Positions 10,058 through 35,600 of a stretch of DNA of 64,000 bases are shown here, piece after piece. How positions within the stretch are numbered: the first letter of the stretch is position 1; every line of letters starts with the position of its first letter. The notes below the pieces were generated by a model. That model saw only the letters and a list, made by a program, of their open reading frames with translations. It made no database searches and was not told the origin of the DNA. A program made the position numbers and the translations under genes. Origin of the DNA: Chondrosia reniformis (taxonomy: Eukaryota > Porifera > Demospongiae > Chondrillida > Chondrillidae); contig OX359195.1 of the NCBI GenBank assembly GCA_947172415.1, positions 7,681,001 to 7,745,000 of the forward strand, in the 5' to 3' direction.

Positions 10058-10574
10058 ATTATTATTATTTTATTTAACGTGCCACATGCATAGCACTAGG
10101 ACAGACTGTCCTATGAGGCACACACCAATACATCATGACAAATAAATCAGTTCAACAAAATATCAAGTCATCAATCAAAAAGGTCAACTAAATCTAGCAG
10201 TCCACATCTTCAAAATAATCTTAAGGATTGAGTGATGCTTGCATCCTTGATCCAGAATGGCAAATAGTTTATCATCATCAGTCATCAAATCAAACCCCAG
10301 TGCTACCCGTGACAAAGACTGAAAAAGGTCCACCCGCTCATCCTTCCATCTCTCGCACTCCAGCAGCCAATGTTGTACATCTTCCACCTTCCCCAAATCA
10401 CACTCCCCACATGTTCTCTCCGCTCTCTCGAGACCCCTCCACCTTCCACATTCAATCCTAAGTGGGGCTGTCCCACCCCTGATCATCATCATCATCCGTC
10501 TCTTACCCTTATCTGCCACATCTAAACATCGAGATTCACCACGTTTCTCCTTCAAAAGTTTCAACAAGGCCAAC
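10058..10574 (-). mobile_element. 5'-truncated LINE (non-LTR retrotransposon) 3' end
   Basis: A ~517-bp insertion in a satellite monomer. Read on the minus strand it encodes the C-terminal part of a non-LTR retrotransposon polyprotein (frame 10184-10573). A Cys-x2-Cys-x9-His-x4-Cys knuckle (TCGECD...HWLLEC) follows an LRIECGRW motif, typical of the tail behind LINE reverse transcriptases. After the stop, the 3' end carries an (AAT)n-type tail, seen on the plus strand as ATTATTATTATTTTATTT at about 10058. Direct repeats TTATATT flank it (10051-10057 and 10575-10581), consistent with a target-site duplication. The empty site survives in another monomer at about 13841-13858. No reverse transcriptase domain remains, so it is a dead 5'-truncated copy. 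Clade not assigned. Confidence 0.8.
10184..10573 (-). pseudogene. LINE polyprotein C-terminal remnant
   Basis: About 129 codons open to the 5' truncation point. Residues around TCGECDLG, EDVQHWLLECERW and WKDER match the zinc-knuckle region that closes many LINE ORF2 proteins. The apparent first residues follow directly from the truncation junction and are not a real start codon. The stop at 10184 is followed by a short 3' UTR and the simple-repeat tail. Only the tail of the protein is present, so it cannot support transposition alone. Confidence 0.7.
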
Positions 10575-10609
10575 TTATATTTGCCCTACGTATCTCTCAC
10601 CATACATTA

Positions 10610-11839
10610 ACGTAAATGTACATTTAGTGCTGTAACTCTGTCAAATCCGTAAATACGAAGCTTAAACTTGGTATCTACATTCACACACATGTATGACACA
10701 TTTCCAAACAGTTTTAGAAATTTTGATTTGTAGATAAATATACCTTATCTCTCATCATACATTAACTAAACTCAAATTGCGTAATACTATAAATGGCCGA
10801 CCTATAGTAGGTGTAAGAGTGAAAATGCGGTACTGTATATATTTCTAAAAAAATAGAACTCTTTGAAAAATTTCTTATACACATGGATATGTACTGTGTA
10901 GTACTTGATTGTTGTTGAAGCAGTATCTATCGACATATATTATATGGATGTCGTTAAAGTGAAATTTTGCCGATCGACGGCCAACGAAACTCCAAAGAAA
11001 AAAAGTTGGACCATACCGAACGCTACCATCCACGACGCTCAGAGGCCGGGATCGGTGGTAACGCTCTGCCGAGTTGAGCTTTGGGTGTCACTTGCGTGAG
11101 AAGAACCAGTTCTTCTCGATATGGCCGACTCATATGAATCCTAAGATATCAGATGCCAATCCCACATTACGTGGAACCCCCCCGAAATCCGGATTATTGG
11201 TGAGCACGTCTCTATGGCACCAACCGATTAGGAGACAGCTTCAGAGTCTAAGCGCTACCAACCCCTATGGGAACCGCTACCACCATAGAGATGTGTCCAG
11301 GTAGGCCTACTTTATAAGGTTTTTTGTCTCTATTTAAACCACAAAATTTCGAAAGAAAACGGTTGTGGTTGGCGCAATTCCATACTTAAGAATAGGGTAT
11401 TTGCGAGAAAAATGTAGTCAAATTATATCAAGTTAATTCGGGATGAGTGCATCGTTCCAAGCCATTTCAAAGGTATATCCAATATTCGTGGTGCATCTAG
11501 AAATTGGGAAAATTGGATAGAATCCTGTAAGTGTCTTGATTGGCGGAGGAGACCAACTTTTCTAGTCCCATGTAGAAACGATTTTAGCGAGAGGTGTTCC
11601 GATATGAACGTAAACTGGTATAACCAGCCACACTCAATCTCAATTGCAGTAATAGCATAATGGCTACCTGCCTCTATGTAAAGACCTTCTGACAGCTGCG
11701 TTCTGCACTGTCCCTACGTGTTTCTAGTTGCCCCATTCATGTCAAAACATTTTAACTTCGTATGCCGATAATTTGCATTATAGTATCGCACGATATATAT
11801 GCTACACATTTAAGGTCGTATAGTAGAAATTTAATGTAC
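10610..11839 (+). repeat. Composite satellite module, copy 4
   Basis: Same module, starting about 35 bp after the right edge of the LINE fragment. Diagnostic variants: ACATTACGTGG, TCTAGTCCC, seven-A run, and a private GGATATGTACTG where the other copies read GGATATGCACTG. Confidence 0.85.
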
Positions 11840-12327
11840 ATTAGAGTGCTGTAGCTCTGTCAAATGGAAAGATATGAAGTTCAAACTTGGTGTCAGCATT
11901 CACAGACATGTATGAAACATTTCCAAGAAGAATTTGAAATTTTCATAAATCTTTATATTTGCCCTATCTTTCACTATACATTAATTTGGTATACCAGTAT
12001 ATAAATGTACATTTGGTGCTCTAACTCTGTCAAATGGAAAGATATGAAGCTCAAACTTGGTGTCAGCATTCACAGACATGTATGAAACATTTCCAATGAG
12101 AATTTGAAATTTTCATAAATCTTTACATTTGCCCTATCTCTCACTACGTATACATTAATTTGGTATACCAGTATATAAATGTACATTTGGTGCTCTAACT
12201 CTGTCAATTGGAAAGATATGAAGCTCAAACTTGGTGTCAGCATTCACAGACATGTATGAAACATTTCCAATGAGAATTTGAAATTTTCATAAATCTTTAC
12301 ATTTGCCCTATCTCTCACCATACATTA

Positions 12328-13558
12328 ACGTAAATGTACATTTAGTGCTGTAACTCTGTCAAATCCGTAAATACGAAGCTTAAACTTGGTATCTACATTC
12401 ACACACATGTATGACACATTTCCAAACAGTTTTAGAAATTTTGATTAGTAGATAAATATACCTTATATCTCATCATACATTAACTAAACTCAAATTGCGT
12501 AATACTATAAATGGCCGACCTATAGTAGGTGTAAGAGTGAAAATGCGGTACTGTATATATTTCTAAAAAAAATAGAACTCTTTGAAAAATTTCTTATACA
12601 CATGGATATGCACTGTGTAGTACTTGATTGTTGTTGAAGCAGTATCTATCGACATATATTATATGGATGTCGTTAAAGTGAAATTTTGCCGATCGACGGC
12701 CAACGAAACTCCAAAGAAAAAAAGTTGGACCATACCGAACGCTACCATCCACGACGCTCAGAGGCCGGGATCGGTGGTAACGCTCTGCCGAGTTGAGCTT
12801 TGGGTGTCACTTGCGTGAGAAGAACCAGTTCTTCTCGATATGGCCGACTCATATGAATCCTAAGATATCAGATGCCAATCCCACATTCCGTGGAACCCCC
12901 CCGAAATCCGGATTATTGGTGAGCACGTCTCTATGGCACCAACCGATTAGGAGACAGCTTCAGAGTCTAAGCGCTACCAACCCCTATGGGAACCGCTACC
13001 ACCATAGAGATGTGTCCAGGTAGGCCTACTTTATAAGGTTTTTTGTCTCTATTTAAACCACAAAATTTCGAAAGAAAACGGTTGTGGTTGGCGCAATTCC
13101 ATACTTAAGAATAGGGTATTTGCGAGAAAAATGTAGTCAAATTATATCAAGTTAATTCGGGATGAGTGCATCGTTCCAAGCCATTTCAAAGGTATATCCA
13201 ATATTCGTGGTGCATCTAGAAATTGGGAAAATTGGATAGAATCCTGTAAGTGTCTTGATTGGCGGAGGAGACCAACTTTTCTAGTCCCATGTAGAAACGA
13301 TTTTAGCGAGAGGTGTTCCGATATGAACGTAAACTGGTATAACCAGCCACACTCAATCTCAATTGCAGTAATAGCATAATGGCTACCTGCCTCTATGTAA
13401 AGACCTTCTGACAGCTGCGTTCTGCACTGTCCCTACGTGTTTCTAGTTGCCCCATTCATGTCAAAACATTTTAACTTCGTATGCCGATAATTTGCATTAT
13501 AGTATCGCACGATATATATGCTACACATTTAAGGTCGTATAGTAGAAATTTAATGTAC
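12328..13558 (+). repeat. Composite satellite module, copy 5
   Basis: Same module. Diagnostic variants: ACATTCCGTGG, TCTAGTCCC, eight-A run, and CCTTATATCTCATC where copies 1-4 have CCTTATCTCTCATC. The eight-A run and the ATATCTC variant are shared with the distant copy at 33571. Confidence 0.85.
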
Positions 13559-14028
13559 ATTAGAGTGCTGTAGCTCGGTCAAATGGAAAGATATGAAGTT
13601 CAAACTTGGTGTCAGCATTCACAGACATGTATGAAACATTTCCAATGAGAATTTGAAATTTTCATAAATCTTTACATTTGCCCAATCTCTCACTATACAT
13701 TAATTTGGTATTCCAGTCTTTTAATGTACATTTGGTGCTCTAACTCTGTCAAATGGAAAGATATGAAGCTCAAACTTGGTGTCAGCATTCACAGACATGT
13801 ATGAAACATTTCCAAGAAGAATTTAAAATTTTCATAAATCTTTATATTTGCCCTACGTATCTCTCACCATACATTAATTTTTTATTCCAGTCTATTAATG
13901 TACATTTGGTGCTCTAACTCTGTCAAATGGAAAGATATGAAGCTCAAACTTGGTGTCAACATTCACAGACATGTATGAAACATGGGGTGTGGGTGGGCGT
14001 GTCATTCTTGAGTGTCTTGTATCTTTAG

Positions 14029-14450
14029 AGATGAGATGATTTGGAGACATGTTCTGAAATCCATAGAGAAGCTTATGTCTCCAGAGAACTCCTTTCACAA
14101 GGAGAACTGGTCCATGTTGGTGAGGGCAGATGTGCTGAAGAGAGTTCTGATGATCGAGAAGGTACAGACTGGTGCACCAGGGGGGGAGGGAGGGGTGACT
14201 TGGTTGCTCTTGCCATATTAGGAGAGGTCCCAAGACAATAGTCCTCCTCTGTCAGCCAACATTGTGACAAGCATTGTTCAGCTCATCTCATGCCTGATAG
14301 GGAGTCCCCCAAAGGAGGCATGTCTCAAGGAGGTGTGGTCCCATGTTCTTGTGCCTCAAGTCAACTTGCTCAAGTTTCTAGCAGAACGCAAAAGATATAG
14401 TTCTTCCTTTACAATTCTAGAGAGCAGTCACGGAATGTCATCTCCAGAGG

Positions 14451-14495
<45 letters not shown>

Positions 14496-17400
14496 GTGGA
14501 GTATGACTAGTTTGTGTCTGTTTGTAGTCCTGTCCCCCGACCGCTGCTCTTCCACTGACTATGAAATCATTGATAACGTACAGACTACAGAGGATGATTT
14601 TGTAGACGAATGGAAGATGTATCTGAAGAGAAGGCATACCATCTGCTCCTGGTCAAGATGAAGGAACAACAGTTTAACCCTTTGGGTTTTTTTCAAGTCA
14701 CAGGTAGACAAGACATTCATTTGTTCTTTACTGAAAGCACTTGCGTAACATTTTATAGGTGTTTTGCAATCATCTGAGGTAGAGATAGAGAGTGGGTGTG
14801 ACCTGGAGGTGGGGCTGTTGGGGGAAATCCGTCGTCAAATTATTAATCTGCCCGACAAGTATGTTAGCTCAATTTTGGGGCCAGTTATCTCGTACAATGG
14901 TTTGATGGTGATGGCCAACCACGAAAGCATCACCATCCGAACAGCAACCATCAGGGTATGTCCTACATTATGGGAATTCCCCCTTAGCATGTCAGCATTG
15001 ATTCTACTTGTTGCAGGTGATGGACGAGTACTTTAAACGAGTGGACAAGGGAGTTTTGGCAGATTTTGTTCAGATGAGAGGGTTTGACTTGCTTGCCTCC
15101 CAGTTGAAGGGCTACAGTGTCTCATTTGAGCAGTTTAGTGCTCTGTTTAGCATCACATTTGGCAGACCCTTTCATCTCAAGCTGCACAAGTCAGTCACTG
15201 TGACACACCATATTACCTGATTGACAGCTGCTGTATACCTCAAAATAGGAAGTGCTCAGTGCATGGCAATGCCGTCTTCACTCACAAAGTTCCAGATTGC
15301 CTCACTGATTCCCATTTTAATGTGTTTGCTGAACTCTGTGTCTCAGCCTCCGGTTTGTCAGTCAGTTCTGTCACTGCTGCAGGAGGTTTGTTAGTGGAGT
15401 CTAGTATTACGTACTTTAACCTTTGCACTCTGACCTGCATTTGTAGATGTATGGCTCTATAGAGACAATCCCTGCTTTCTTCGTGGAGCAAGATGGCCTC
15501 CAAATACTGGTCTGGCTTGTTGTGAAAATTTGTTACACTAAACTAGACAAGTCAGTTACTACAATCTATCAAGCAATTGTGGTCATGTGATCTATCATGT
15601 GATTAGCATGTGACCTATCGCTCTGTGTAGAGATGATCGCTCAATGCTGCTTACAGAAGTCCTTCAATTTCTGTGTTCAATCATTGAACATTCATTCAAG
15701 TGAGCTACTTTACTCCTTCAGTAGATGCATCTATATATCCAGGTCACAACTATTGTACGTACATATGTATGTATGTAGGTAGGTAGGTATAGGTAGGTAG
15801 GTAGGTAGGTAGGTATAGGTAGGTAGGTATAGGTAGGTAGGTATAGGTAGGTAGGTAGGTAGGTAGGTATAGGTAGGTAGGTATAGGTAGGTAGGTAGGT
15901 AGGTAGGTAGGTAGGTATAGTTAGGTATAGGTAGGTAGGTATAGGTAGGTAGGTAGGTAGGTATAGGTAGGTAGGTAGGTATAGGTAGGTAGGTATAGGT
16001 AGGTAGGTATAGGTAGGTATAGGTAGGTATAGGTAGGTAGGTATAGGTAGGTAGGTATAGGTAGGTAGGTAGGTAGGTATAGGTAGGTAGGTAGGTATAG
16101 GTAGGTAGGTATAGGTAGGTAGGTATAGGTAGGTATAGGTAGGTATAGGTAGGTGGATAGGTAGGTAGGTATAGGTAGGTAGGTATAGGTAGGTAGGTAT
16201 AGGTAGGTATAGTTAAGTAGGTATAGGTAGGTATAAGTAGGTATAGGTAGGTAGGTATAGGTAGGTATAGGTAGGTATAGGTAGGTAGGTATAGGTAGGT
16301 AGGTATAGGTAGGTAGGTATAGGTAGGTATAGGTAGGTAGGTATAGGTAGGTATAGGTAGGTATAGGTAGGTAGGTATAGGTAGGTATAGGGAGGTATAG
16401 GTAGGTAGGTATAGGTAGGTGGGTATAGGTAGGTATAGGGAGGTATAGGTAGGTAGGTATGGGTAGGTATAGGTAGGTATAGGTAGGTGGGTATAGGTAG
16501 GTGGGTATAGGTAGGTAGGTATAGGTAGGTAGGTAGGTAGGTAGGTAGGTAGGTAGGTTGGTAGGTAGGTATAGGTAGGTAGTTAGGTATAGGTAAGTAG
16601 GTATAGGTAGGTAGGTATAGGTAAGTAGGTATAGGTAGGTAGGTAGGTAGGTAGGTAGGTAGGTATAGGTAGGTAGGTAGGTAGGTAGGTATAGGTAGGT
16701 ATAGGTAGGTATAGGTAGGTAGGTATAGGTAGGTAGGTATAGGTAGGTAGGTATAGGTAGGTAGGTATAGGTAGGTATAGGTAGGTATAGGTAGGTAGGT
16801 ATAGGTAGGTAGGTATAGGAAGGTATAGGTAGGTATAGGTAGGTTGGTATAGGTAGGTATAGGTAGGTATAGGTAGGTAGGTATACGTAGGTAGGTATAG
16901 GTAGGTATAGGTAGGTATAGGTAGGTAGGTATAGGTAGGTAGGTATAGGTAGGTATGTATAGGTAGGTAGGTAGGTAGGTAGGTAGGTATAGGTAAGTAG
17001 GTAGGTATAGGTAGGTAGGTATAGGTAGGTAGGTATAGGTAGGTAGGTATAGGTAGGTAGGTATAGGTAGGTATAGGTAGGTATAGGTAGGTAGGTATAG
17101 GTGGGTAGGTATTGGTAGGTATAGGTAGGTATAAGTAGGTTGGTATAGGTAGGTATAGGTAGGTATAGGTAGGTAGGTATAGGTAGGTAGGTATAGGTAG
17201 GTATAGGTAGGTATAGGTAGGTAGGTATAGGTAGGTAGGTATAGGTAGGTATGTATAGGTAGGTAGGTAGGTAGGTAGGTAGGTATAGGTAGGTAGGTAG
17301 GTAGGTATAGGTAGGTAGGTATAGGTAGGTAGGTAGGTAGGTAGGTATAGGTAGGTAGGTAGGTATAGGTAGGTAGGTATAGGTAGGTAGGTAGGTAGGT

Positions 17401-20400
17401 AGGTAGGTAGGTAGGTAGGTAGGTATAGGTAGGTAGTTAGGTATAGGTAAGTAGGTATAGGTAGGTAGGTATAGGTAGGTAGGTATAGGTAGGTAGGTAG
17501 GTAGGTAGGTAGGTAGGTATAGGTAGGTAGGTAGGTATAGGTAGATAGGTATAGGTAGGTAGGTAGGTAGGTAGGTATAGGTAGGTATAGGTAGGTATAG
17601 GTAAGTAGGTATAGGTAGGTAGGTATAGGTAGGTAGGTATAGGTAGGTAGGTAGGTAGGTAGGTAGGTAGGTATAGGTAGGTAGGTAGGTATAGGTAGAT
17701 AGGTATAGGTAGGTAGGTAGGTAGGTAGGTATAGGTAGGTATAGGTAGGTATAGGTAGGTATAGGTAGGTAGGTATAGGTAGGTTGGTATAGGTAGGTAT
17801 AGGTAGGTATAGGTAGGTTGGTATAGGTAGGTATAGGTAGGTATAGGTAGGAAGGTATAGGTAGGTTGGTATAGGTAGGTATAGGTAGGTATAGGTAGGT
17901 AGGTATAGGTAGCTAGGTATAGGTAGGTAGGTATAGGTAGGTATGTATAGGTAGGTAGGGAGGTAGGTAGGTAGGTATAGGTAGGTAGGTAGGTATAGGT
18001 AGGTAGGTATAGGTAGGTAGGTAGGTAGGTAGGTATAGGTAGGTAGGTAGGTATAGGTAGGTATAGGTAGGTATAGGTAGGTATAGGAAGGTAGGTATAG
18101 GTAGGTAGGTATAGGTAGGTAGGTATAGGTAGGTATACGTGGGTATAGGTAGGTAGGTATAGGTGGGTAGGTATAGGTAGGTATAGGTAGGTATAGGTAG
18201 GTTGGTATAGGTAGGTATAGGTAGGTATAGGTAGGTAGGTATAGGTAGGTAGTTATAGGTAGGTATAGGTAGGTAGGTATATGTAGGTAGGTAGGTATAG
18301 GTAGGCATAGGTAGGTATAGGTAGGTATAGGTAGGTAGGTATAGGTAGGTAGGTATAGGTAGGTATAGGTAGGTATAGGTAGGTATAGGTAGGTAGGTAT
18401 AGGTAGGTAGGTATAGGTAGGTAGATAGGTAGGTAGGTATAGGTAGGTAGGTATAGGTAGGTATAGGTAGGTATATGTAGGTATAGGTAGGTAGGTATAG
18501 GTAGGTATAGGTAGGTATAGGTAGGTAGGTATAGGTAGGTAGGTATAGGTAGGTATAGGTAGGTATAGGTAGGTATAGGTAGGTAGGTATAGGTAGGTGG
18601 GTATAGGTAGGTAGGTATAGGCAGGTAGGTATAGGTAGGTAGGTATTGGTAGGTAGGTAGGTATAGGTAGGTATAGGTAGGTATAGGTAGGTAGGTATAG
18701 GTGAGTAGGTATAGGTAGGTATAGGTAGGTAGGTATAGGTATGTAGGTAGGTAGGTAGGTATAGGTAGGTAGGTATAGGAAGGTATAGGTAGGTAGGTAT
18801 ATGTAGGTAGGTATAGGTAGGTATAGGTAGGTATAGGTAGGTAGGTATAGGTAGGTAGGTATAGGTAGGTATGTATAGGTAGGTAGGTAGGTAGGTAGGT
18901 AGGTATAGGTAGGTAGGTAGGTATAGGTAGGTAGGTATAGGTAGGTAGGTAGGTAGGTAGGTATAGGTAGGTAGGTAGGTATAGGTAGGTATAGGTAGGT
19001 ATAGGTAGGTATAGGTAGGTAGGTATAGGTAGGTAGGTATAGGTAGGTAGGTATAGGTAGGTATAGGTAGGTATAGGTAGGTAGGTATAGGTGGGTAGGT
19101 ATTGGTAGGTATAGGTAGGTATAGGTAGGTTGGTATAGGTAGGTATAGGTAGGTATAGGTAGGTAGGTATAGGTAGGTAGGTATAGGTAGGTATAGGTAG
19201 GTATAGGTAGGTAGGTATAGGTAGGTAGGTATAGGTAGGTATGTATAGGTAGGTAGGTAGGTAGGTAGGTAGGTAGGTATAGGTAGGTAGGTAGGTATAG
19301 GTAGGTAGGTATAGGTAGGTAGGTAGGTAGGTAGGTATAGGTAGGTAGGTAGGTATAGGTAGGTAGGTATAGGTAGGTAGGTAGGTAGGTAGGTAGGTAG
19401 GTAGGTAGGTAGGTATAGGTAGGTAGTTAGGTATAGGTAAGTAGGTATAGGTAGGTAGGTATAGGTAGGTAGGTATAGGTAGGTAGGTAGGTAGGTAGGT
19501 AGGTAGGTATAGGTAGGTAGGTAGGTATAGGTAGATAGGTATAGGTAGGTAGGTAGGTAGGTAGGTATAGGTAGGTATAGGTAGGTATAGGTAGGTATAG
19601 GTAGGTAGGTATAGGTAGGTTGGTATAGGTAGGTATAGGTAGGTATAGGTAGGTTGGTATAGGTAGGTATAGGTAGGTATAGGTAGGTAGGTATAGGTAG
19701 GTTAGTATAGGTAGGTATAGGTAGGTATAGGTAGGTAGGTATAGGTAGGTAGGTATAGGTAGGTAGGTATAGGTAGGTATGTATAGGTAGGTAGGGAGGT
19801 AGGTAGGTAGGTATAGGTAGGTAGGTAGGTATAGGTAGGTAGGTATAGGTAGGTAGGTAGGTAGGTAGGTATAGGTAGGTAGGTAGGTATAGGTAGGTAT
19901 AGGTAGGTATAGGTAGGTATAGGAAGGTAGGTATAGGTAGGTAGGTATAGGTAGGTAGGTATAGGTAGGTATAGGTGGGTATAGGTAGGTAGGTATAGGT
20001 GGGTAGGTATAGGTAGGTATAGGTAGGTATAGGGAGGTTGGTATAGGTAGGTATAGGTAGGTATAGGTAGGTAGGTATAGGTAGGTAGGTATAGGTAGGT
20101 ATAGGTAGGTAGGTATATGTAGGTAGGTAGGTATAGGTAGGCATAGGTAGGCATAGGTAGGTATAGGTAGGTAGGTATAGGTAGGTAGGTATAGGTAGGA
20201 ATAGGTAGGTATAGGTAGGTATAGGTAGGTAGGTATAGGTAGGTAGGTATAGGTAGGTAGGTATAGGTAGGTAGATAGGTAGGTAGGTATAGGTAGGTAG
20301 GTATAGGTAGGTATAGGTAGGTATATATAGGTATAGGTAGGTAGGTATAGGTAGGTATAGGTAGGTATAGGTAGGTAGGTATAGGTAGGTAGGTATAGGT

Positions 20401-23400
20401 AGGTAGGTAGGTAGGTGGGTAGGTATAGGTAGGTAGGTATAGGTAGGTATAGGTAGGTATAGGTAGGTATAGGTAGGTATAGGTAGGTAGGTATAGGTAG
20501 GTGGGTATAGGTAGGTAGGTATAGGCAGGTAGGTATAGGTAGGTAGGTATTGGTAGGTAGGTAGGTATAGGTAGGTATAGGTAGGTATAGGTAGGTAGGT
20601 ATAGGTGGGTAGGTATAGGTAGGTAGGTATAGGTAGGTATAGGTAGGTATAGGTAGGTATAGGTAGGTATAGGTAGGTAGGTATAGGTAGGTGGGTATAG
20701 GTAGGTAGGTATAGGCAGGTAGGTATAGGTAGGTAGGTATTGGTAGGTAGGTAGGTATAGGTAGGTATAGGTAGGTATAGGTAGGTAGGTATAGGTGAGT
20801 AGGTATAGGTAGGTATAGGTAGGTAGGTATAGGTAGGTAGGTATAGGTAGGTAGGTATAGGTAGGTAGGTAGGTAGGTAGGTATAGGTAGGTAGGTAGGT
20901 ATAGGTAGGTAGGTATAGGTAGGTAGGTAGGTAGGTAGGTAGGTAGGTAGGTAGGTAGGTATAGGTAGGTAGTTAAGTATAGGTAAGTAGGTATAGGTAG
21001 GTAGGTATAGGTAGGTAGGTATAGGTAGGTAGGTAGGTAGGTAGGTATAGGTAGGTATAGGTAGGTATAGGTAGGTATAGGTAGGTAGGTATAGGTAGGT
21101 TGGTATAGGTAGGTATAGGTAGGTATAGGTAGGTTGGTATAGGTAGGTATAGGTAGGTATAGGTGGGTAGGTATAGGTAGGTTAGTATAGGTAGGTATAG
21201 GTAGGTATAGGTAGGTAGGTATAGGTAGGTAGGTATAGGTAGGTAGGTATAGGTAGGTATGTATAGGTAGGTAGGGAGGTAGGTAGGTAGGTATAGGTAG
21301 GTAGGTAGGTATAGGTAGGTAGGTATAGGTAGGTAGGTAGGTAGGTAGGTATAGGTAGGTAGGTAGGTATAGGTAGGTATAGGTAGGTATAGGTAGGTAT
21401 AGGAAGGTAGGTATAGGTAGGTAGGTATAGGTAGGTATGTATAGGTAGGTAGGTAGGTAGGTAGGTAGGTATAGGTAGGTAGGTAGGTAGGTATAGGTAG
21501 GTATAGGTAGGTATAGGTAGGTATAGGTAGGTAGGTAGGTATAGGTAGGTAGGTATAGGTAGGTAGGTAGGTAGGTAGGTATAGGTAGGTAGGTAGGTAT
21601 AGGTAGGTATAGGTAGGTATAGGTAGGTATAGGTAGGTAGGTATAGGTAGGTAGGTATAGGTAGGTAGGTATAGGTAGGTATAGGTAGGTATAGGTAGGT
21701 AGGTATAGGTGGGTAGGTATTGGTAGGTATAGGTAGGTATAGGTAGGTTGGTATAGGTAGGTATAGGTAGGTATAGGTAGGTAGGTATAGGTAGGTAGGT
21801 ATAGGTAGGTATAGGTAGGTATAGGTAGGTAGGTATAGGTAGGTAGGTATAGGTAGGTATGTATAGGTAGGTAGGTAGGTAGGTAGGTAGGTAGGTATAG
21901 GTAGGTAGGTAGGTATAGGTAGGTAGGTATAGGTAGGTAGGTAGGTAGGTAGGTATAGGTAGGTAGGTAGGTATAGGTAGGTAGGTATAGGTAGGTAGGT
22001 AGGTAGGTAGGTAGGTAGGTAGGTAGGTAGGTATAGGTAGGTAGTTAGGTATAGGTAAGTAGGTATAGGTAGGTAGGTATAGGTAGGTAGGTATAGGTAG
22101 GTAGGTAGGTAGGTAGGTAGGTAGGTATAGGTAGGTAGGTAGGTATAGGTAGATAGGTATAGGTAGGTAGGTAGGTAGGTAGGTATAGGTAGGTATAGGT
22201 AGGTATAGGTAGGTATAGGTAGGTAGGTATAGGTAGGTTGGTATAGGTAGGTATAGGTAGGTATAGGTAGGTTGGTATAGGTAGGTATAGGTAGGTATAG
22301 GTAGGTAGGTATAGGTAGGTTAGAATAGGTAGGTATAGGTAGGTATAGGTAGGTAGGTATAGGTAGGTAGGTATAGGTAGGTAGGTATAGGTAGGTATGT
22401 ATAGGTAGGTAGGGAGGTAGGTAGGTAGGTATAGGTAGGTAGGTAGGTATAGGTAGGTAGGTATAGGTAGGTAGGTAGGTAGGTAGGTATAGGTAGGTAG
22501 GTAGGTATAGGTAGGTATAGGTAGGTATAGGTAGGTATAGGAAGGTAGGTATAGGTAGGTAGGTATAGGTTGGTAGGTATAGGTAGGTATAGGTGGGTAT
22601 AGGTAGGTAGGTATAGGTGGGTAGGTATAGGTAGGTATAGGTGGGTATAGGGAGGTATAGGTAGGTAGGTATAGGTAGGTAGGTATAGGTAGGTAGGTAT
22701 AGGTAGGTAGATAGGTAGGTAGGTATAGGTAGGTAGGTATAGGTAGGTATAGGTAGGTATATATAGGTATAGGTAGGTAGGTATAGGTAGGTATAGGTAG
22801 GTATAGGTAGGTAGGTATAGGTAGGTAGGTATAGGTAGGTAGGTAGGTAGGTGGGTAGGTATAGGTAGGTAGGTATAGGTAGGTATAGGTAGGTATAGGT
22901 AGGTATAGGTAGGTATAGGTAGGTAGGTATAGGTAGGTGGGTATAGGTAGGTAGGTATAGGCAGGTAGGTATAGGTAGGTAGGTATTGGTAGGTAGGTAG
23001 GTATAGGTAGGTATAGGTAGGTATAGGTAGGTAGGTATAGGTAGGTAGGTATAGGTAGGTAGGTATAGGTAGGTATAGGTAGGTATAGGTAGGTATAGGT
23101 AGGTATAGGTAGGTAGGTATAGGTAGGTGGGTATAGGTAGGTTGGTATAGGCAGGTAGGTATAGGTAGGTATGTATTGGTAGGTAGGTAGGTATAGGTAG
23201 GTATAGGTAGGTATAGGTAGGTAGGTATAGGTGAGTAGGTATAGGTAGGTATAGGTAGGTAGGTATAGGTAGGTAGGTATAGGTAGGTAGGTATAGGTAG
23301 GTAGGTAGGTAGGTAGGTATAGGTAGGTAGGTAGGTATAGGTAGGTAGGTATAGGTAGGTAGGTAGGTAGGTAGGTAGGTAGGTAGGTAGGTAGGTATAG

Positions 23401-26400
23401 GTAGGTAGTTAGGTATAGGTAAGTAGGTATAGGTAGGTAGGTATAGGTAGGTAGGTATAGGTAGGTAGGTAGGTAGGTAGGTAGGTAGGTATAGGTAGGT
23501 AGGTAGGTATAGGTAGATAGGTATAGGTAGGTAGGTAGGTAGGTAGGTATAGGTAGGTATAGGTAGGTATAGGTAGGTATAGGTAGGTAGGTATAGGTAG
23601 GTTGGTATAGGTAGGTATAGGTAGGTATAGGTAGGTTGGTATAGGTAGGTATAGGTAGGTATAGGTAGGTAGGTATAGGTAGGTTAGTATAGGTAGGTAT
23701 AGGTAGGTATAGGTAGGTAGGTATAGGTAGGTAGGTATAGGTAGGTAGGTATAGGTAGGTATGTATAGGTAGGTAGGGAGGTAGGTAGGTAGGTATAGGT
23801 AGGTAGGTAGGTATAGGTAGGTAGGTATAGGTAGGTAGGTAGGTAGGTAGGTATAGGTAGGTAGGTAGGTATAGGTAGGTATAGGTAGGTATAGGTAGGT
23901 ATAGGAAGGTAGGTATAGGTAGGTAGGTATAGGTAGGTAGGTATAGGTAGGTATAGGTGGGTATAGGTAGGTAGGTATAGGTGGGTAGGTATAGGTAGGT
24001 ATAGGTAGGTATAGGGAGGTTGGTATAGGTAGGTATAGGTAGGTATAGGTAGGTAGGTATAGGTAGGTAGGTATAGGTAGGTATAGGTAGGTAGGTATAT
24101 GTAGGTAGGTAGGTATAGGTAGGCATAGGTAGGCATAGGTAGGTATAGGTAGGTAGGTATAGGTAGGTAGGTATAGGTAGGTATAGGTAGGTATAGGTAG
24201 GTATAGGTAGGTAGGTATAGGTAGGTAGGTATAGGTAGGTAGGTATAGGTAGGTAGATAGGTAGGTAGGTATAGGTAGGTAGGTATAGGTAGGTATAGGT
24301 AGGTATATGTAGGTATAGGTAGGTAGGTATAGGTAGGTATAGGTAGGTATAGGTAGGTAGGTATAGGTAGGTAGGTATAGGTAGGTAGGTAGGTAGGTGG
24401 GTAGGTATAGGTAGGTAGGTATAGGTAGGTATAGGTAGGTATAGGTAGGTATAGGTAGGTATAGGTAGGTAGGTATAGGTAGGTGGGTATAGGTAGGTAG
24501 GTATAGGCAGGTAGGTATAGGTAGGTAGGTTTTGGTAGGTAGGTAGGTATAGGTAGGTATAGGTAGGTATAGGTAGGTAGGTATAGGTGGGTAGGTATAG
24601 GTAGGTAGGTATAGGTAGGTATAGGTAGGTATAGGTAGGTATAGGTAGGTATAGGTAGGTAGGTATAGGTAGGTGGGTATAGGTAGGTAGGTATAGGCAG
24701 GTAGGTATAGGTAGGTAGGTATTGGTAGGTAGGTAGGTATAGGTAGGTATAGGTAGGTATAGGTAGGTAGGTATAGGTGAGTAGGTATAGGTAGGTATAG
24801 GTAGGTAGGTATAGGTATGTAGGTAGGTAGGTAGGTATAGGTAGGTAGGTATAGGTAGGTATAGGTAGGTATATGTAGGTATAGGTAGGTAGGTATAGGT
24901 AGGTATAGGTAGGTATAGGTAGGTAGGTATAGGTAGGTAGGTATAGGTAGGTAGGTAGGTAGGTGGGTAGGTATAGGTAGGTAGGTATAGGTAGGTATAG
25001 GTAGGTATAGGTAGGTATAGGTAGGTATAGGTAGGTAGGTATAGGTTGGTAGGTATAGGTAGGTAGGTATAGGCAGGTAGGTATAGGTAGGTAGGTGTGG
25101 GTAGGTAGGTAGGTATAGGTAGGTATAGGTAGGTATAGGTAGGTAGGTATAGGTGGGTAGGTATAGGTAGGTATAGGTAGGTATAGGTAGGTAGGTAGGT
25201 AGGTAGGTATAGTTAGGTAGGTATAGGTAGGTAGGTATAGGTAGGTATAGGTAGGTAGGTAGGTAGATAGGTATAGGTAGGTAGGTATAGGTAGGTATAG
25301 GTAGGTATAGGTAGGTAGGTATAGGCAGGTAGGTATAGGTAGGTAGGTATAGGTAGGTAGGTAGGTATAGGTAGGTATAGGTAGGTATAGGTAGGTAGGT
25401 ATAGGTGGGTAGGTATAGGTAGGTATAGGTAGGTAGGTATGGGTAGGTAGGTAGGTATAGGTAGGTATAGGTAGGTATAGGTAGGTAGGTATAGGTGGGT
25501 AGGTATAGGTAGGTATAGGTAGGTATAGGTAGGTAGGTAGGTAGGTAGGTATAGTTAGGTAGGTATAGGTAGGTAGGTATAGGTAGGTATAGGTAGGTAG
25601 GTAGGTAGATAGGTATAGGTAGGTAGGTATAGGTAGGTAGGTATAGGTAGGTATAGGTACGTAGGTATAGGTAGGTATAGGTAGGTATAGGTAGTTAGGT
25701 ATAGGTAGGTAGGTATAGGTAGGTAGGTAGGTAGGTAGGTATAGGTAGGTAGGTATAGGTAGGTATAGGTAGGTATATGTAGGTATAGGTAGGTAGGTAT
25801 AGGTAGGTATAGGTAGGTATAGGTAGGTAGGTATAGGTAGGTAGGTATAGGTAGGTAGGTAGGTAGGTGGGTAGGTATAGGTAGGTAGGTATAGGTAGGT
25901 ATAGGTAGGTATAGGTAGGTATAGGTAGGTATAGGTAGGTAGGTATAGGTAGGTAGGTATAGGTAGGTAGGTATAGGCAGGTAGGTATAGGTAGGTAGGT
26001 ATAGGTAGGTAGGTAGGTATAGGTAGGTATAGGTAGGTATAGGTAGGTAGGTATAGGCAGGTAGGTATAGGTAGGTAGGTATAGGTAGGTAGGTAGGTAT
26101 AGGTAGGTATAGGTAGGTATAGGTAGGTAGGTATAGGTGGGTAGGTATAGGTAGGTATAGGTAGGTATAGGTAGGTAGGTAGGTAGGTAGGTATAGGTAG
26201 GTAGGTATAGGTAGGTAGGTATAGGTAGGTATAGGTAGGTAGGTAGGTAGATAGGTATAGGTAGGTAGGTATAGGTAGGTAGGTATAGGTAGGTATAGGT
26301 ACGTAGGTATAGGTAGGTATAGGTAGGTATAGGTAGGTAGGTAGGTATAGGTAGGTAGGTAGGTATAGGTAGGTAGGTATAGGTAGGTAGGTAGGTAGGT

Positions 26401-26600
26401 AGGTAGGTATAGGTAGGTAGGTATAGGTAGGTATAAGTAGGTATAGGTAGGTATAGATAGAAATGCATTGCTGTTGCACTATTTAGTAAATACTCTGTTA
26501 CCGTATTCTCTAATACTGTTTTACAGCACCCGAGAAGACACCTTAACTCTGAGACAAGTCACTACCCTCCTGAGGCGCTGTGAGCAAGACCTGTCTGAAG
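14029..26600 (+). CDS. Large multi-exon gene fragment, helical-repeat protein, possibly LYST/BEACH-like
   Basis: At least nine exons read on the plus strand: 14029-14171, 14256-~14450, 14606-14703, 14759-14955, 15017-15189, 15296-15385, 15447-15550, 15631-15699 and 26527-26600. Translated pieces include RHVLKSIEKLMSPENSF, GEIRRQIINLPDKYVSSIL, MRGFDLLASQLKGYS, IPAFFVEQDGLQILVWL and LRQVTTLLRRCEQDL. They are leucine-rich amphipathic helices like the armadillo/HEAT-type region upstream of BEACH domains (LYST, WDFY), but no BEACH or WD40 domain lies in the window, so the family is tentative. The last exon pair splices across 10.8 kb in matching phase (AA|C). Two joins are weak: exon 2 to 3 runs into a GT microsatellite, and exon 5 to 6 needs a poor donor (TCA|gtcact) to keep frame. 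Neither the start nor the 3' end is present; satellite DNA lies on both sides. It is either part of a gene with giant satellite introns or a stranded fragment. Confidence 0.5.
14450..14494 (+). repeat. (GT)n(GA)n microsatellite
   Basis: An uninterrupted GT run followed by GA repeats, at the likely 5' splice junction of the second recognisable exon of the helical-repeat gene. Any GT in the tract could serve as donor, so the end of that exon cannot be fixed from sequence. Confidence 0.9.
15766..26455 (+). repeat. Giant TAGG/TATAGG minisatellite inside an intron
   Basis: About 10.7 kb built almost only of TAGG and TATAGG units (typical period TATAGGTAGGTAGG), with rare variants (GGCATAGG, TAGGGAGG, TATTGG, TATATG). 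It starts at a (TATG)n stretch just after a TACGTAC site and lies between exons 15631-15699 and 26527-26600, so it is intronic. Variant patterns repeat at about 4 kb (for example the paired GCATAGGTAGGCATAGG at ~20150 and ~24122), showing higher-order duplication. The C-rich strand has no stop in any frame, which yields spurious Tyr/Leu/Pro/Thr frames of up to 931 codons. The unit is not a TTAGGG-type telomere repeat. Confidence 0.95.
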
Positions 26601-26605
26601 GTAAC

Positions 26606-26697
26606 ATCTGTACTGACCCACCCACTGCACTGACCCCACCCATCTGTACTGACCCCACCCACTATACTGACCCAACCCACTGTAACGACCCCACCCC
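26606..26697 (+). repeat. Short CTGACCCCACCC-type tandem repeat at island edge
   Basis: Four or five imperfect units of about 25 bp built on (T)ACTGACCCCACCCA, directly after the donor of the last recognisable exon and running to the right edge of the island, where the satellite resumes. Its reverse complement (GGGGTGGGGT) loosely matches the left edge of the island (GGGGTGTGGGT). Confidence 0.75.
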
Positions 26698-26698
26698 T

Positions 26699-29600
26699 AA
26701 CATTTCCAAGAGGAATTTGAAATTTTCATAAATCTTTACATTTGCCCTATCTCTCACCATACATTAATTTGGTATTCCAGTCTATTAATGTACATTTGGT
26801 GTTCTAACTCTGTCAAATGGAAAGATATGAAGCTCAAACTTGGTGTCAGCATTCACAGACATGTACGTATGAAACATTTCCAAGAAGAATTTGAAATTTT
26901 CATAAATCTTTATATTTGCCCTATCTCTCACTATACATTAATTTGGTATACCAGTATATAAATGTACATTTGGTGCTCTAACTCTGTCAAATGGAAAGAT
27001 ATGAAGCTCAAACTTGGTGTCAGCATTCACAGACATGTATGAAACATTTCCAAGAAGAATTTGAAATTTTCATAAATCTTTATATTTGCCCTATCTCTCA
27101 CTATACATTAATTTGGTATACCAGTATATAAATGTACATTTGGTGCTCTAACTCTGTCAAATGGAAAGATATGAAGCTCAAACTTGGTGTCAGCATTCAC
27201 AGATATGTATGAAACATTTCCAATGAGAATTTGAAATTTTCATAAATCTTTACATTTGCCCTATCTCTCACTATACATTAATTTAGTATTCCAGGCTTTT
27301 ATTGTACATTTGGTGCTCTAACTCTGTCAAATGGAAAGATATGAAGCTCAAACTTGGTGTCAGTATTCACAAACATATATGAAACATTTCCAAAGAGAAT
27401 TTGAAATTTTCATAAATATTTACATTTGCCCTATCTCTCACTATACATTAATTTGGTATTCCAGTCTATTAATGTACATTTGGTGCTCTAACTCTGTCCA
27501 ATGGAAAGATATGAAGCTCAAACTTGGTGTCAGCATTCACAGACATGTATGAAACATTTCCAATGAGAATTTGAAATTTTCATAAATCTTTACATTTGCC
27601 CTATCTCTCACTATACATTAAATTGGTATTCCAGTCTATTAATGTACATTTGGTGCTCTAACTCTGTCAAATGGAAAGATATGAAGCTCAAACTTGGTGT
27701 CAGCATTCACAGACATGTATGAAACATTTCCAATGAGAATTTGAAATTTTCATAAATTTTAACATTTGCTCTATCTCTCACTATACATTAATTTGGTATA
27801 CCAGTATATAAATGTACATTTGGTGCTCTAACTCTGTCAATTGGAAAGATATGAAACTCAAACTTGGTGTCAGCATTCACAGATATGTATGAAACATTTC
27901 CAATGAGAATTTGAAATTTTCATAAATATTTACATTTGCCCTATCTCTCACTATACATTAATTTAGTATTCCAGGCTTTTATTGTACATTTGGTGCTCTA
28001 ACTCTGTCAAATGGAAAGATATGAAGCTCAAACTTGGTGTCAGTATTCACAAACATATATGAAACATTTCCAAAGAGAATTTGAAATTTTCATAAATATT
28101 TACATTTGCCCTATCTCTCACTATACATTAATTTGGTATTCCAGTCTATTAATGTACATTTGGTGCTCTAACTCTGTCCAATGGAAAGATATGAAGCTCA
28201 AACTTGGTGTCAGCATTCACAGACATGTATGAAACATTTCCAATGAGAATTTGAAATTTTCATAAATCTTTACATTTGCCCTATCTCTCACCATACATTA
28301 AATTGGTATTCCAGTCTATTAATGTACATTTGGTGCTCTAACTCTGTCCAATGGAAAGATATGAAGCTCAAACTTGGTGTCAGCATTCACAGACATGTAT
28401 GAAACATTTCCAAGAAGAATTTGAAATTTTCATAAATCTTTATATTTGCCCTATCTCTCACTATACATTAATTTGGTATACCAGTATATGAATGTACATT
28501 TGGTGCTCTAACTCTGTCAAATGGAAAGATATGAAGCTCAAACTTGGTGTCAGCATTCACAGATATGTATGAAACATTTCCAATGAGAATTTGAAATTTT
28601 CATAAATCTTTACATTTGCCCTATCTCTCACTATACATTAATTTAGTATTCCAGGCTTTTATTGTACATTTGGTGCTCTAACTCTGTCAAATGGAAAGAT
28701 ATGAAGCTCAAACTTGGTGTCAGTATTCACAAACATATATGAAACATATCCAAAGAGAATTTGAAATTTTCATAAATATTTACATTTGCCCTATCTCTCA
28801 CTATACATTAATTTGGTATACCAGTCTATTAATGTACATTTGGTGCTCTAACTCTGTCCAATGGAAAGATATGAAGCACAAACTTGGTGTCAGCATTCAC
28901 AGACATGTATGAAACATTTCCAATGAGAATTTGAAATTTTCATAAATCTTTACATTTGCCCTATCTCTCACCATACATTAAATTGGTATTCCAGTCTATT
29001 AATTTACATTTGGTGCTCTAACTCTGTCAAATGGAAAGATATGAAGCTCAAACTTGGTGTCAGCATTCACAGACATGTATGAAACATTTCCAATGAGAAT
29101 TTGAAATTTTCATAAATTTTAACATTTGCTCTATCTCTCACTATACATTAATTTGGTATACCAGTATATAAATGTACATTTGGTGCTCTAACTCTGTCAA
29201 TTGGAAAGATATGACGCTCAAACTTGGTGTCATCATTCACAGACATGTATGAAACATTTCCAATGAGAATTTGAAATTTTCATAAATTTTAACATTTGCT
29301 CTATCTCTCACTATACATTAATTTGGTATACCAGTATATAAATGTACATTTGGTGCTCTAACTCTGTCAAATGGAAAGATATGAAGCTCAAACTTGGTGT
29401 CAGCATTCACAGATATGTATGAAACATTTCCAATGAGAATTTGAAATTTTCATAAATATTTACATTTGCCCTATCTCTCACTATACATTAATTTAGTATT
29501 CCAGTCTATTAATGTACATTTGGTGCTCTAACTCTGTCCAATGGAAAGATATGAAGCTCAAACTTGGTGTCAGCATTCACAGACATGTATGAAACATTTC

Positions 29601-32600
29601 CAATGAGAATTTGAAATTTTCATAAATCTTTACATTTGCTCTATCTCTCACTATACATTAATTTAGTATTCCAGGCTTTTATTGTACATTTGGTGCTCTA
29701 ACTCTGTCAAATGGAAAGATATGAAGCTCAAACTTTGTGTCAGTATTCACAAACATATATGAAACATTTCCAAAGAGAATTTGAAATTTTCATAAATATT
29801 TACATTTGCCCTATCTCTCACTATACATTAATTTGGTATTCCAGTCTATTAATGTACATTTGGTGCTCTAACTCGGTCAAATGGAAAGATATGAAGCTCA
29901 AACTTGGTGTCAGCATTCACAGACATGTATGAAACATTTCCAATGAGAATTTGAAATTTTCATAAATCTTTACATTTGCCCTATCTCTCACTATACATTA
30001 ATTTGGTATACCAGTATATAAATGTACATTTGGTGCTCTAACTCTGTCAAATGGAAAGATATGAAGCTCAAACTTGGTGTCAGCATTCACAGATATGTAT
30101 GAAACATTTCCAATGAGAATTTGAAATTTTCATAAATCTTTACATTTGCCCTATCTCTCACTATACATTAATTTAGTATTCCAGGCTTTTATTGTACATT
30201 TGGTGCTCTAACTCTGTCAAATGGAAAGATATGAAGCTCAAACTTGGTGTCAGTATTCACAAACATATATTAAACATTTTCAAAGAGAATTTGAAATTTT
30301 CATAAATCTTTACATTTGCCCTCTATCTCACCATACATTAATTTGGTATTCCAGTCTATTAATGTACATTTGGTGCTCTAACTCTGTCTAATGGAAAGAT
30401 ATGAAGCTCAAACTTGGTGTCAGCATTCACAGATATGTATGAAACATTTCCAATGAGAATTTGAAATTTTCATAAATCTTTACATTTGCCCTATCTCTCA
30501 CTATACATTAATTTAGTATTCCAGGCTTTTATTGTACATTTGGTGCTCTAACTCTGTCAAATGGAAAGATATGAAGCTCAAACTTGGTGTCAGTATTCAC
30601 AAACATATATGAAACATTTGCAAAGAGAATTTGAAATTTTCATAAATATTTACATTTGCCCTATCTCTCACTATACATTAATTTGGTATTCCAGTCTATT
30701 AATGTACATTTGGTGCTCTAACTCTGTCCAATGGAAAGATATGAAGCTCAAACTTGGTGTCAGCATTCACAGACATGTATGAAACATTTCCAATGAGAAT
30801 TTGAAATTTTCATAAATTTTAACATTTGCTCTATCTCTCACTATACATTAATTTGGTATACCAGTATATAAATGTACATTTGGTGCTCTAACTCTGTCAA
30901 ATGGAAAGATATGAAGCTCAAACTTTGTGTCAGCATTCACAGATATGTATGAAACATTTTCAATGAGAATTTGAAATTTTCATAAATATTTACATTTGCC
31001 CTATCTCTCACTATACATTAATTTGGTATTCCAGTCTATTAATGTACATTTGGTGCTCTAACTCTGTCCAATGGAAAGATATGAAGCTCAAACTTGGTGT
31101 CAGCATTCACAGATATGTATGAAACATTTCCAATGAGAATTTGAAATTTTCATAAATCTTTACATTTGCCCTATCTCTCACTATACATTAAATTGGTATA
31201 CCAGTCTATTAATGTACATTTGGTGCTCTAACTCTGTCAAATGGAAAGATATGAAGCTCAAACTTGGTGTCAGCATTCACAGACATGTATGAAACATTTC
31301 CAATGAGAATTTGAAATTTTCATAAATTTTAACATTTGCTCTATCTCTCACTATACATTAATTTGGTATACCAGTATATAAATGTACATTTGGTGCTCTA
31401 ACTCTGTCAAATGGAAAGATATGAAGCTCAAACTTTGTGTCAGCATTCACAGATATGTATGAAACATTTTCAATGAGAATTTGAAATTTTCATAAATATT
31501 TACATTTGCCCTATCTCTCACTATACATTAATTTGGTATTCCAGTCTATTAATGTACATTTGGTGCTCTAACTCTGTCCAATGGAAAGATATGAAGCTCA
31601 AACTTGGTGTCAGCATTCACAGATATGTATGAAACATTTCCAATGAGAATTTGAAATTTTCATAAATCTTTACATTTGCCCTATCTCTCACTATACATTA
31701 AATTGGTATACCAGTCTATTAATGTACATTTGGTGCTCTAACTCTGTCAAATGGAAAGATATGAAGCTCAAACTTGGTGTCAGCATTCACAGACATGTAT
31801 GAAACATTTCCAATGAGAATTTGAAATTTTCATAAATTTTAACATTTGCTCTATCTCTCACTATACATTAATTTGGTATACCAGTATATAAATGTACATT
31901 TGGTGCTCTAACTCTGTCAATAGGAAAGATATGAAGCTCAAACTTGGTGTCAGCATTCACAGACATGTATGAAACATTTCCAAGGAGAATTTAAAATTTT
32001 CATAAATCTTTACATTTGCCCTATCTCTCACTACGTATACATTATTTTGGTATACCAGTATATAAATGTACATTTGGTGCTCTAACTCTGTCAAATGGAA
32101 AGATATGAAGCTCAAACTTGGTGTAAGCATTCACAGATATGTATGAAACATTTCCAATGAGAATTTGAAATTTTCATAAATATTTACATTTGCCCTATCT
32201 CTCACTATACATTAATTTGGTATTCCAGTCTATTAATGTACATTTGGTGCTCTAACTCTGTCCAATGGAAAGATATGAAGCTCAAACTTGGTGTCAGCAT
32301 TCACAGATATGTATGAAACATTTCCAATGAGAATTTGAAATTTTCATAAATCTTTACATTTGCCCTATCTCTCACTATACATTAAATTGGTATACCAGTC
32401 TATTAATGTACATTTGGTGCTCTAACTCTGTCAAATGGAAAGATATGAAGCTCAAACTTGGTGTCAGCATTCACAGACATGTATGAAACATTTCCAATGA
32501 GAATTTGAAATTTTCATAAATTTTAACATTTGCTCTATCTCTCACTATACATTAATTTGGTATACCAGTATATAAATGTACATTTGGTGCTCTAACTCTG

Positions 32601-35600
32601 TCAATAGGAAAGATATGAAGCTCAAACTTGGTGTCAGCATTCACAGACATGTATGAAACATTTCCAAGGAGAAATTGAAATTTTCATAAATCTTTATATT
32701 TGCCCTATCTCTCACTACGTATACATTAATTTGGTATACCAGTATATAAATGTACATTTGGTGCTCTAACTCTGTCAATTGGAAAGATATGAAGCTCAAA
32801 CTTGGTGTCATCATTCACAGACATGTATGAAACATTTCCAATAAGAATTTGAAATCTTTACATTTGCCCTATATCTCACCATACATTAATTTGGTATATG
32901 AGTACGTATATAAATGCACATTTGGTGCTCTAACTCTGTCAAATGGAAAGAAATGAAGCTCAAACTTGGTGTCAGCATTCACAGACATGTATGAAACATT
33001 TCCAAGAAGAATTTGAAATTTTCATAAATATTTACATTTGCCCTATATCTCACTATACATTAATTTGGTATTCCAGTCTATTAATGTACATTTGGTGCTC
33101 TAACTCTGTCAAATGGAAAGATATGAAGCTCAAACTTGGTGTCAGCATTCACAGACATGTATGAAACATTTCCAATGAGAATTTGAAATTTTCATAAATC
33201 TTTACATTTGCCCTATCTCTCACTACGTATACATTAATTTGGTATACCAGTATATAAATGTACATTTGGTGCTCTAACTCTGTCAATTGGAAAGATATGA
33301 AGCTCAAACTTGGTGTCATCATTCACAGACATGTATGAAACATTTCCAATGAGAATTTGAAATCTTTACATTTGCCCTATCTCTCACTAAACATTAATGT
33401 GGTATACGAGTACGTATATAAAGGCACATTTGGTGCTCTAACTCTGTCAAGTGGAAAGATATGAAGCTCAAACTTGGTGTCAGCATTCACAGACATGTAT
33501 GAAACATTTCCAATGAGAATTTGAAATTTTCATAAATCTTTACATTTGCCCTATCTCTCACCATACATTAACGTAAATGTACATTTAGTGCTGTAACTCT
33601 GTCAAATCCGTAAATACGAAGCTTAAACTTGGTATCTACATTCACACACATGTATGACACATTTCCAAACAGTTTTAGAAATTTTGATTTGTAGATAAAT
33701 ATACCTTATATCTCATCATACATTAACTAAACTCAAATTGCGTAATACTATAAATGGCCGACCTATAGTAGGTGTAAGAGTGAAAATGCGGTACTGTATA
33801 TATTTCTAAAAAAAATAGAACTCTTTGAAAAATTTCTTATACACATGGATATGCACTGTGTAGTACTTGATTGTTGTTGAAGCAGTATCTATCGACATAT
33901 ATTATATGGATGTCGTTAAAGTGAAATTTTGCCGATCGACGGCCAACGAAACTCCAAAGAAAAAAAGTTGGACCATACCGAACGCTACCATCCACGACGC
34001 TCAGAGGCCGGGATCGGTGGTAACGCTCTGCCGAGTTGAGCTTTGGGTGTCACTTGCGTGAGAAGAACCAGTTCTTCTCGATATGGCCGACTCATATGAA
34101 TCCTAAGATATCAGATGCCAATCCCACATTACGTGGAACCCCCCCGAAATCCGGATTATTGGTGAGCACGTCTCTATGGCACCAACCGATTAGGAGACAG
34201 CTTCAGAGTCTAAGCGCTACCAACCCCTATGGGAACCGCTACCACCATAGAGATGTGTCCAGGTAGGCCTACTTTATAAGGTTTTTTGTCTCTATTTAAA
34301 CCACAAAATTTCGAAAGAAAACGGTTGTGGTTGGCGCAATTCCATACTTAAGAATAGGGTATTTGCGAGAAAAATGTAGTCAAATTATATCAAGTTAATT
34401 CGGGATGAGTGCATCGTTCCAAGCCATTTCAAAGGTATATCCAATATTCGTGGTGCATCTAGAAATTGGGAAAATTGGATAGAATCCTGTAAGTGTCTTG
34501 ATTGGCGGAGGAGACCAACTTTTCTGGTCCCATGTAGAAACGATTTTAGCGAGAGGTGTTCCGATATGAACGTAAACTGGTATAACCAGCCACACTCAAT
34601 CTCAATTGCAGTAATAGCATAATGGCTACCTGCCTCTATGTAAAGACCTTCTGACAGCTGCGTTCTGCACTGTCCCTACGTGTTTCTAGTTGCCCCATTC
34701 ATGTCAAAACATTTTAACTTCGTATGCCGATAATTTGCATTATAGTATCGCACGATATATATGCTACACATTTAAGGTCGTATAGTAGAAATTTAATGTA
34801 CATTAGAGTGCTGTAGCTCTGTCAAATGGAAAGATATGAAGTTCAAACTTGGTGTCAGCATTCACAGACATGTATGAAACATTTCCAATAAGAATTTGAA
34901 ATTTTCATAAATCTTTACATTTGCCCTATCTCTCACTATACATTAATTTGGTATTCCAGTCTTTTAATGTACATTTGGTGCTCTAACTCTGTCAAATGGA
35001 AAGATATGAAGCTCAAACTTGGTGTCAGCATTCACAGACATGTATGAAACATTTCCAAGAAGAATTTGAAATTTTCATAAATCTTTACATTTGCCCTATC
35101 TCTCACTATACATTAATTTGGTATACCAGTCTATTAATGTACATTTGGTGCTCTAACTCTGTCAAATGGAAAGATATGAAGCTCAAACTTGGTGTCAGCA
35201 TTCACAGACATGTATGAAACATTTCCAAGAAGAATTTGAAATTTTCATAAATCTTTACATTTGCCCTATCTCTCACTATACATTAATTTGGTATTCAAGG
35301 CTTTTATTGTACATTTGGTGCTCTAACTCTGTCAAATGGAAAGATATGAAGCTCAAACTTGGTGTCAGTATTCACAGATATGTATGAAACATTTCCAATG
35401 AGAATTTGAAATTTTCATAAATATTTATATTTGCCCTATCTCTCACCATACATTAAATTGGTATTCCAGTCTATTAATGTGCATTTGGTGCTCTAACTCT
35501 GTCAAATGGAAAGATATGAAGCTCAAACTTGGTGTCAGCATTCACAGACATGTATGAAACATTTCCAATGAGAATTTGAAATTTTTATAAATCTTTACAT

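Follow-up and report, generated by a model that had tools for sequence, protein, structure and literature searches.

A gene segment from chromosome 14, probably captured at a staggered break, within a satellite array on chromosome 7 of the sponge Chondrosia reniformis

In the kidney sponge, Chondrosia reniformis, a 12,715-bp island (13984-26698) lies inside one monomer of a chromosome 7 satellite array, and its counterpart is a 5,064-bp segment of what is probably a BEACH/WD40-type gene on chromosome 14. From comparison of the two loci, we consider it very probable that chromosome 14 DNA was captured at a staggered break in a chromosome 7 satellite that was already in place. Positions refer to the window, the whole 64,000-nucleotide stretch that we analysed (C7:7681001-7745000), unless a chromosome is named. 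The genome searched comprised 117,379,552 bp in 15 contigs; the published description of this assembly, odChoReni1.1, reports a size of 117.37 Mb, with 14 chromosomes and the mitochondrial genome (PMC12181767). The features of the window are as follows.

1-13983, plus strand: left part of the satellite, with 170-bp monomers and five 1.06-kb cores; it starts about 1,855 bp before the window and is broken at 10058-10574
1344-2403, 3742-4801, 8699-9758, 10771-11830, 12489-13549 and 33732-34792: cores 1 to 6
2404-3334, plus strand: stretch after core 1, island-free counterpart of the joined flanks (96.6%), with the highest score in the block for the 240 bp around the junction
4802-5732, plus strand: stretch after core 2, island-free equivalent of the joined flanks (96.7%)
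10058-10574, no strand assigned: dispersed multi-copy element with a (TTA/ATT)n end and a 7-bp phase overlap, an internal comparator for the island
13979-13983, plus strand: AACAT, left copy of the target-site duplication (from sequence, phase and overlap test)
13984, plus strand: extra G at the left junction (GGG in the donor, GGGG in the island), either a 1-nt filler or slippage in the G run
13985-15766, plus strand: left part of the probably captured segment, with exons 1-8 (14029-14161, 14222-14450, 14528-14703, 14759-14955, 15017-15189, 15249-15385, 15447-15550 and 15631-15699)
15767-26460, plus strand: TAGG/TATAGG minisatellite in intron 8, 10.7 kb as compared with 3.0 kb in the donor
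26461-26698, plus strand: right part of the probably captured segment, containing exon 9 (26527-26600) and ending in a C-rich 18-bp repeat
26699-26703, plus strand: AACAT, target-site duplication, right copy; the A with which it starts may be the last base of the donor, which would leave 4 bp
26699-45390, plus strand: right part of the same satellite block, with a single core (33732-34792)
34793-35718: stretch after core 6, matching the joined flanks (95.1%)

The island and the array that it interrupts

The satellite block extends from about 1,855 bp before the window to position 45390, with 170-bp monomers that all run one way and six 1.06-kb cores showing 100% mutual identity after rounding. 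It is interrupted twice, by a 517-bp dispersed repeat (10058-10574) and by the island (13984-26698). For the shorter insert, 40 of 96 candidate copies in the genome were scored and no Pfam match was obtained; its assignment as a truncated LINE would rest on copy number, the simple-repeat end and the phase overlap. Beyond this block, the best 40 of 980 first-look candidates for the core were scored, on ten contigs, and the core may be a dispersed element that brings its own satellite. One 2.9-kb core-plus-monomer unit is found on chromosome 14 (C14:6641465-6644352).

We also surveyed eight further 10-kb stretches around known hits, containing 74.5 kb of the same satellite, and all gaps between satellite pieces were of 37 bp or less, with the 37-bp gaps at core boundaries; insertions longer than 10 kb, or at the edges of a stretch (e.g. 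the first 5.2 kb of stretch L020), would escape this survey. In an array on chromosome 3 (L021:1006-1022), a minus-strand core meets plus-strand satellite across 15 bp, which amounts to an orientation switch. About 2.2 kb past the right end of the block on chromosome 7, at approximately 47590-47800 on the minus strand, the window encodes a peptide matching Ribophorin_II_3rd (Pfam, E 1.5e-16).

The last base of the left satellite is 13983 (...ATGTATGAAACAT) and the first base of the right satellite, on the same strand, is 26699 (AACATTTCCAAG...). The monomer phase is 5 at the left edge of the island and 1 at its right edge, so that exactly 5 bp are common to both sides. Among the 11 overlaps, from 0 to 10 bp, that we scored against each of three reference stretches, 5 bp gave the top score in all three cases. 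These results bear out the original prediction, made from this stretch alone, of an island within a single monomer flanked on both sides by AACAT; the chance of 1 in 170 that it quoted for two arrays meeting in register needs no extra account, because an insertion keeps the phase by definition.

At the left junction, AACAT is followed by the extra G and then by donor GGGTGTGGG; at the right junction, donor ...CCCCT is followed by an A that fits both sides and then by ACATTTCC. Because of this shared A, the target duplication would be of either 4 or 5 bp, and microhomology would amount to 1 bp at most. Each of the junction 14-mers occurs only once, and the 104 kb examined contain zero N.

For comparison with the rest of the array, 434 bp from the left of the island and 500 bp from its right were joined, keeping AACAT once, and searched for in the window, in the flank to its left and in eight further loci. 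The joined flanks aligned end to end with stretches that follow cores, the top three being those after cores 2, 1 and 6, and the alignment was gapless over 40 bp on each side of the junction. When 120 bp per side were compared with the block in 6,321 windows, the site itself left out, the top score (449, against a median of 350) was that of the stretch following core 1; the one following core 4 scored 323, under the median, and the one following core 3 holds the dispersed insert. The array order across the site is borne out by three of the five other cores, with one against and one not judgeable. The satellite array appears to predate the island, and the island-free counterparts of the site are paralogous positions of the same array.

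The donor segment on chromosome 14

A DNA search of the genome with 13985-15760 (1,776 bp; E ≤ 0.001), in which simple repeats and very common words were skipped, identified two places: the window itself and C14:6663536-6665361, on the minus strand, where the query matched over its full length at 96%. Alignment extended this match collinearly to a donor segment of 5,064 bp (C14:6660298-6665361, minus strand; 19640-24703 of a reversed 50-kb stretch), and no third copy of the segment appeared in the search made. The fuller copy of the gene that the original prediction had envisaged thus exists, on chromosome 14. Outside the minisatellite and the terminal C-rich repeat, island and donor differ by 19 substitutions in 1,921 aligned bases, with 13/1,765 on the left side and 6/156 on the right, which is the more divergent.

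All nine exons foreseen for the island are present and complete, with AG/GT borders and with their introns retained. The donor exons, of 133, 229, 177, 197, 173, 133, 104, 69 and 74 nt, show no stop in 1,288 nt; exon 3 of the island measures 176 nt (a 1-nt deletion) and its exon 6 measures 137 nt (a 4-nt insertion), both changes being frameshifts. The exons differ by 15 substitutions in 1,288 aligned bases, nine of them synonymous and six not. Exon 4 of the donor ends in a 36-bp tandem duplication that has no counterpart in the island, indicating that either the donor was altered too or the island lost 36 bp. Additionally, the terminal C-rich 18-bp repeat is longer by about two units in the island than it is in the donor; if these were filler rather than gained units, the donor end would move by a few bases. 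We take the donor to be the working copy and the island a pseudogene fragment.

Matches to PH_BEACH, Beach and WD40 domains lie downstream of the donor segment. Pfam searches gave nothing for three island peptides or for the open frames tested upstream of the donor segment, including one of 685 aa, and only two matches, both under their cut-offs, for the nine-exon donor translation; the domains that name the gene are therefore all downstream of the copied part. A search among solved structures for a BEACH-type gene returned two sequences, neurobeachin and LRBA. From order and frames, our reading is that the upstream open frames, the donor segment and the downstream domains would form one BEACH/WD40-type gene. 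The stretch C14:6635001-6685000 also harbours long minisatellites with open frames, whose putative translations include repeats of IYSSHPISVLP, PLCPSLSLSV and TPLTHPLISA.

In the donor, the intronic minisatellite (C14:6660502-6663541; 3.0 kb) is made up of 1,028 bp of uniform TAGG and, after it, 199 uniform 10-bp TATAGGTAGG units. Conversely, the 10.7-kb minisatellite of the island has its units in mixed order and, written as a string of units, contains a repeated stretch of 61 characters. Because the flanks differ by just about 1%, one or both arrays would have been rebuilt after the split, or one of them changed by assembly. The giant minisatellite that had been predicted is real in the assembly; it may have been of another size on arrival, given the smaller and differently arranged donor array.

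The left donor breakpoint falls inside GGGTGTGAGGGTGTAAGGGTGTGGGTGGG, a canonical G-quadruplex motif, and the right one lies 2 bp past the end of a C-rich tract that counts as a motif only if loops of up to 12 are allowed. Approximately 4.7% of the positions in the 50 kb are within 10 bp of such a motif, and both breakpoints would be so placed by chance in about 0.2% of cases, a figure that comes from one event, from a looser loop limit and from a test picked after seeing the ends. In human, breakpoints of copy number variants are described as enriched in tandem repeats and quadruplex-prone sequence (PMC4090240). It is a tentative and rather unlikely extension that quadruplex-prone intron tracts act as paired fragile sites, freeing multi-kilobase genic fragments that are captured at satellite breaks and that here, by happenstance, contain whole exons only.

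How the segment may have reached the satellite

We propose that a staggered double-strand break would have opened one monomer of the existing array on chromosome 7, and that its repair would have inserted a copy of about 5.06 kb of the BEACH/WD40-type gene from chromosome 14, with end homology being almost nil. A free fragment could have been joined in, or the donor could have been copied in a synthesis-dependent manner, and filling of the staggered ends would have generated the 4-5-bp duplication. Afterwards, the copy would have become frameshifted and the intronic minisatellite greatly changed in one or both copies. We infer the direction, from chromosome 14 to chromosome 7, from the frameshifts and from the continuation of the gene on chromosome 14. 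It is likewise our interpretation that a break set off the event, and so is the route of repair; for a length of 5 kb, end joining of a free fragment would be a better match than the synthesis-dependent route.

The donor segment on chromosome 14, with its ends and its collinearity, speaks for a capture, which the original prediction had listed among its readings; the insertion of a gene segment into a monomer with a duplication of 5 bp, or of 4 bp given one ambiguous base, is supported, and its donor is now located. Nevertheless, a 4-5-bp duplication would also suit an integrase-type cut, and the greater divergence of the right side (6/156 versus 13/1,765) and the approximately two extra 18-bp units at the right end also count against capture.

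An artefact of assembly is improbable. A 10.7-kb repeat beside tens of kilobases of satellite could favour one, as could a mean HiFi read length of about 12.9 kb (10.31 Gb in 0.80 million reads, according to the reported totals), but the sequence is devoid of N, the two copies are separated by 19 substitutions and by frameshifts, and a chimeric join is unlikely to produce an in-phase 5-bp duplication.

It is also quite improbable that the segment was mobilised by a DNA transposon, or by an integrase acting in trans, with the 5-bp duplication as a product. Besides that duplication, the GGGGTG at one end of the island and its loose inverse at the other could point to such an origin, and the GC-rich, loosely inverted edges noted at the outset are indeed present. 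However, they do not qualify as ends of a mobile element, because the left edge is donor intron sequence except for one G, and the right edge is the C-rich 18-bp repeat of the donor intron. We found neither the terminal inverted repeats and several copies of a DNA transposon nor the TG...CA ends and LTRs of an integrase-borne element, the ends being GGGGTG and CCCCT(A). Moreover, the genome search returned two copies only, the junction 14-mers are unique, and by eye no short duplication is seen around the donor segment. The transposition reading of the original prediction is thus not upheld.

Ectopic recombination with the small satellite element of chromosome 14, approximately 16 kb from the donor segment, would draw on a nearby 2.9-kb copy of the same satellite plus core. 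We regard this as highly unlikely: the element and the gene point in opposite directions, and the two breakpoints are within introns of the gene, neither of them in satellite.

As an alternative, the original prediction had offered an outward expansion of the satellite, from a seed monomer, into a once-continuous gene, which the presence of satellite on both sides, in one orientation, might suggest. This is extremely unlikely, because the gene runs on past both breakpoints on chromosome 14, the array order runs on across the island in the joined flanks, and sequence from the gene flanks is missing at the array edges (for the second flank, among the matches listed). One donor flank, searched genome-wide, gave 19 matches, those outside the donor being short (query 407-630) and none on chromosome 7; the second gave at least 213 (40 scored of 424 candidates), and among the matches listed those outside the donor were short repeat hits at about query 407-518, which on chromosome 7 lie away from the window.

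Retroposition by the LINE machinery of the sponge, suggested by the (TTA/ATT)n-ended dispersed element inserted with a 7-bp overlap in the same block, is next to impossible, because the island keeps eight introns, minisatellite included, and has neither a poly-A nor an (ATT)n tail at either end, unlike a processed retrocopy, with its introns gone and a 3' tail. Neither retroposition nor transposition was retained, as there is no tail, the introns are kept, no mobile-element ends are found, the genome search gave two copies only and the junction words are unique. Capture at a staggered break remains our preferred reading.

Relation to known duplications

Segmental duplications are defined as copies of more than 1 kb with more than 90% identity, and the island has a second copy with 96% identity over 1,776 bp and 19/1,921 bases substituted. 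In the duplicative transposition of primate pericentromeric regions, genic segments of more than 1 kb and high identity move into satellite-rich DNA, with G-rich repeats at the breakpoints. The island resembles these cases in being genic, longer than 1 kb, highly identical to its source and placed in satellite-rich DNA with G-rich breakpoints; it differs from them in being a single simple event.

Human interchromosomal duplications lacking poly-A offer a second comparison, and in Table 1 of Pace et al. (2009; PMC2671141) we counted 12 that were typed, 7 with a target-site duplication and 6 of these with filler. Like the human repair-mediated duplications of that study, the island is a tail-less copy from another locus at a putative break, with a short target duplication and a 1-nt filler or microhomology: its donor is identifiable and has an open copy, the duplication is of 4-5 bp, and there is an extra G on the left and an overlap of at most 1 bp on the right, without poly-A. 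Unlike the human set, where the largest case described is of 619 bp and the accepted donors are within 5 kb (PMC2671141), the donor here measures 5,064 bp and is on another chromosome, the target is a satellite and the host is a sponge. Its authors do not consider it possible to assign distant duplications to repair with confidence, and they argue that larger segmental duplications originate through different mechanisms (PMC2671141).

In grass genomes, genic fragments are described as filler DNA in break repair, some becoming pseudogenes (Wicker et al. 2010, via PMC3445842). The island shares with them a gene fragment as the probable filler and a pseudogene as the outcome, although in the grass cases, as presented there, repair accompanies the insertion of a transposable element, and the island junctions have no such element. 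The event belongs to a known kind, then, and is unusual in its size, its host, its G-quadruplex-prone breakpoints and the 3.0- and 10.7-kb sizes of the minisatellite, which makes this pair of loci a case of one intronic minisatellite wholly rearranged between flanks about 1% apart. The periodicity of the target array makes the donor, the target, the phase and the two junctions legible almost to the base, and this suggests that satellite arrays may serve as recorders of break repair, here in an animal only distantly related to the vertebrates and plants in which such events have been described.
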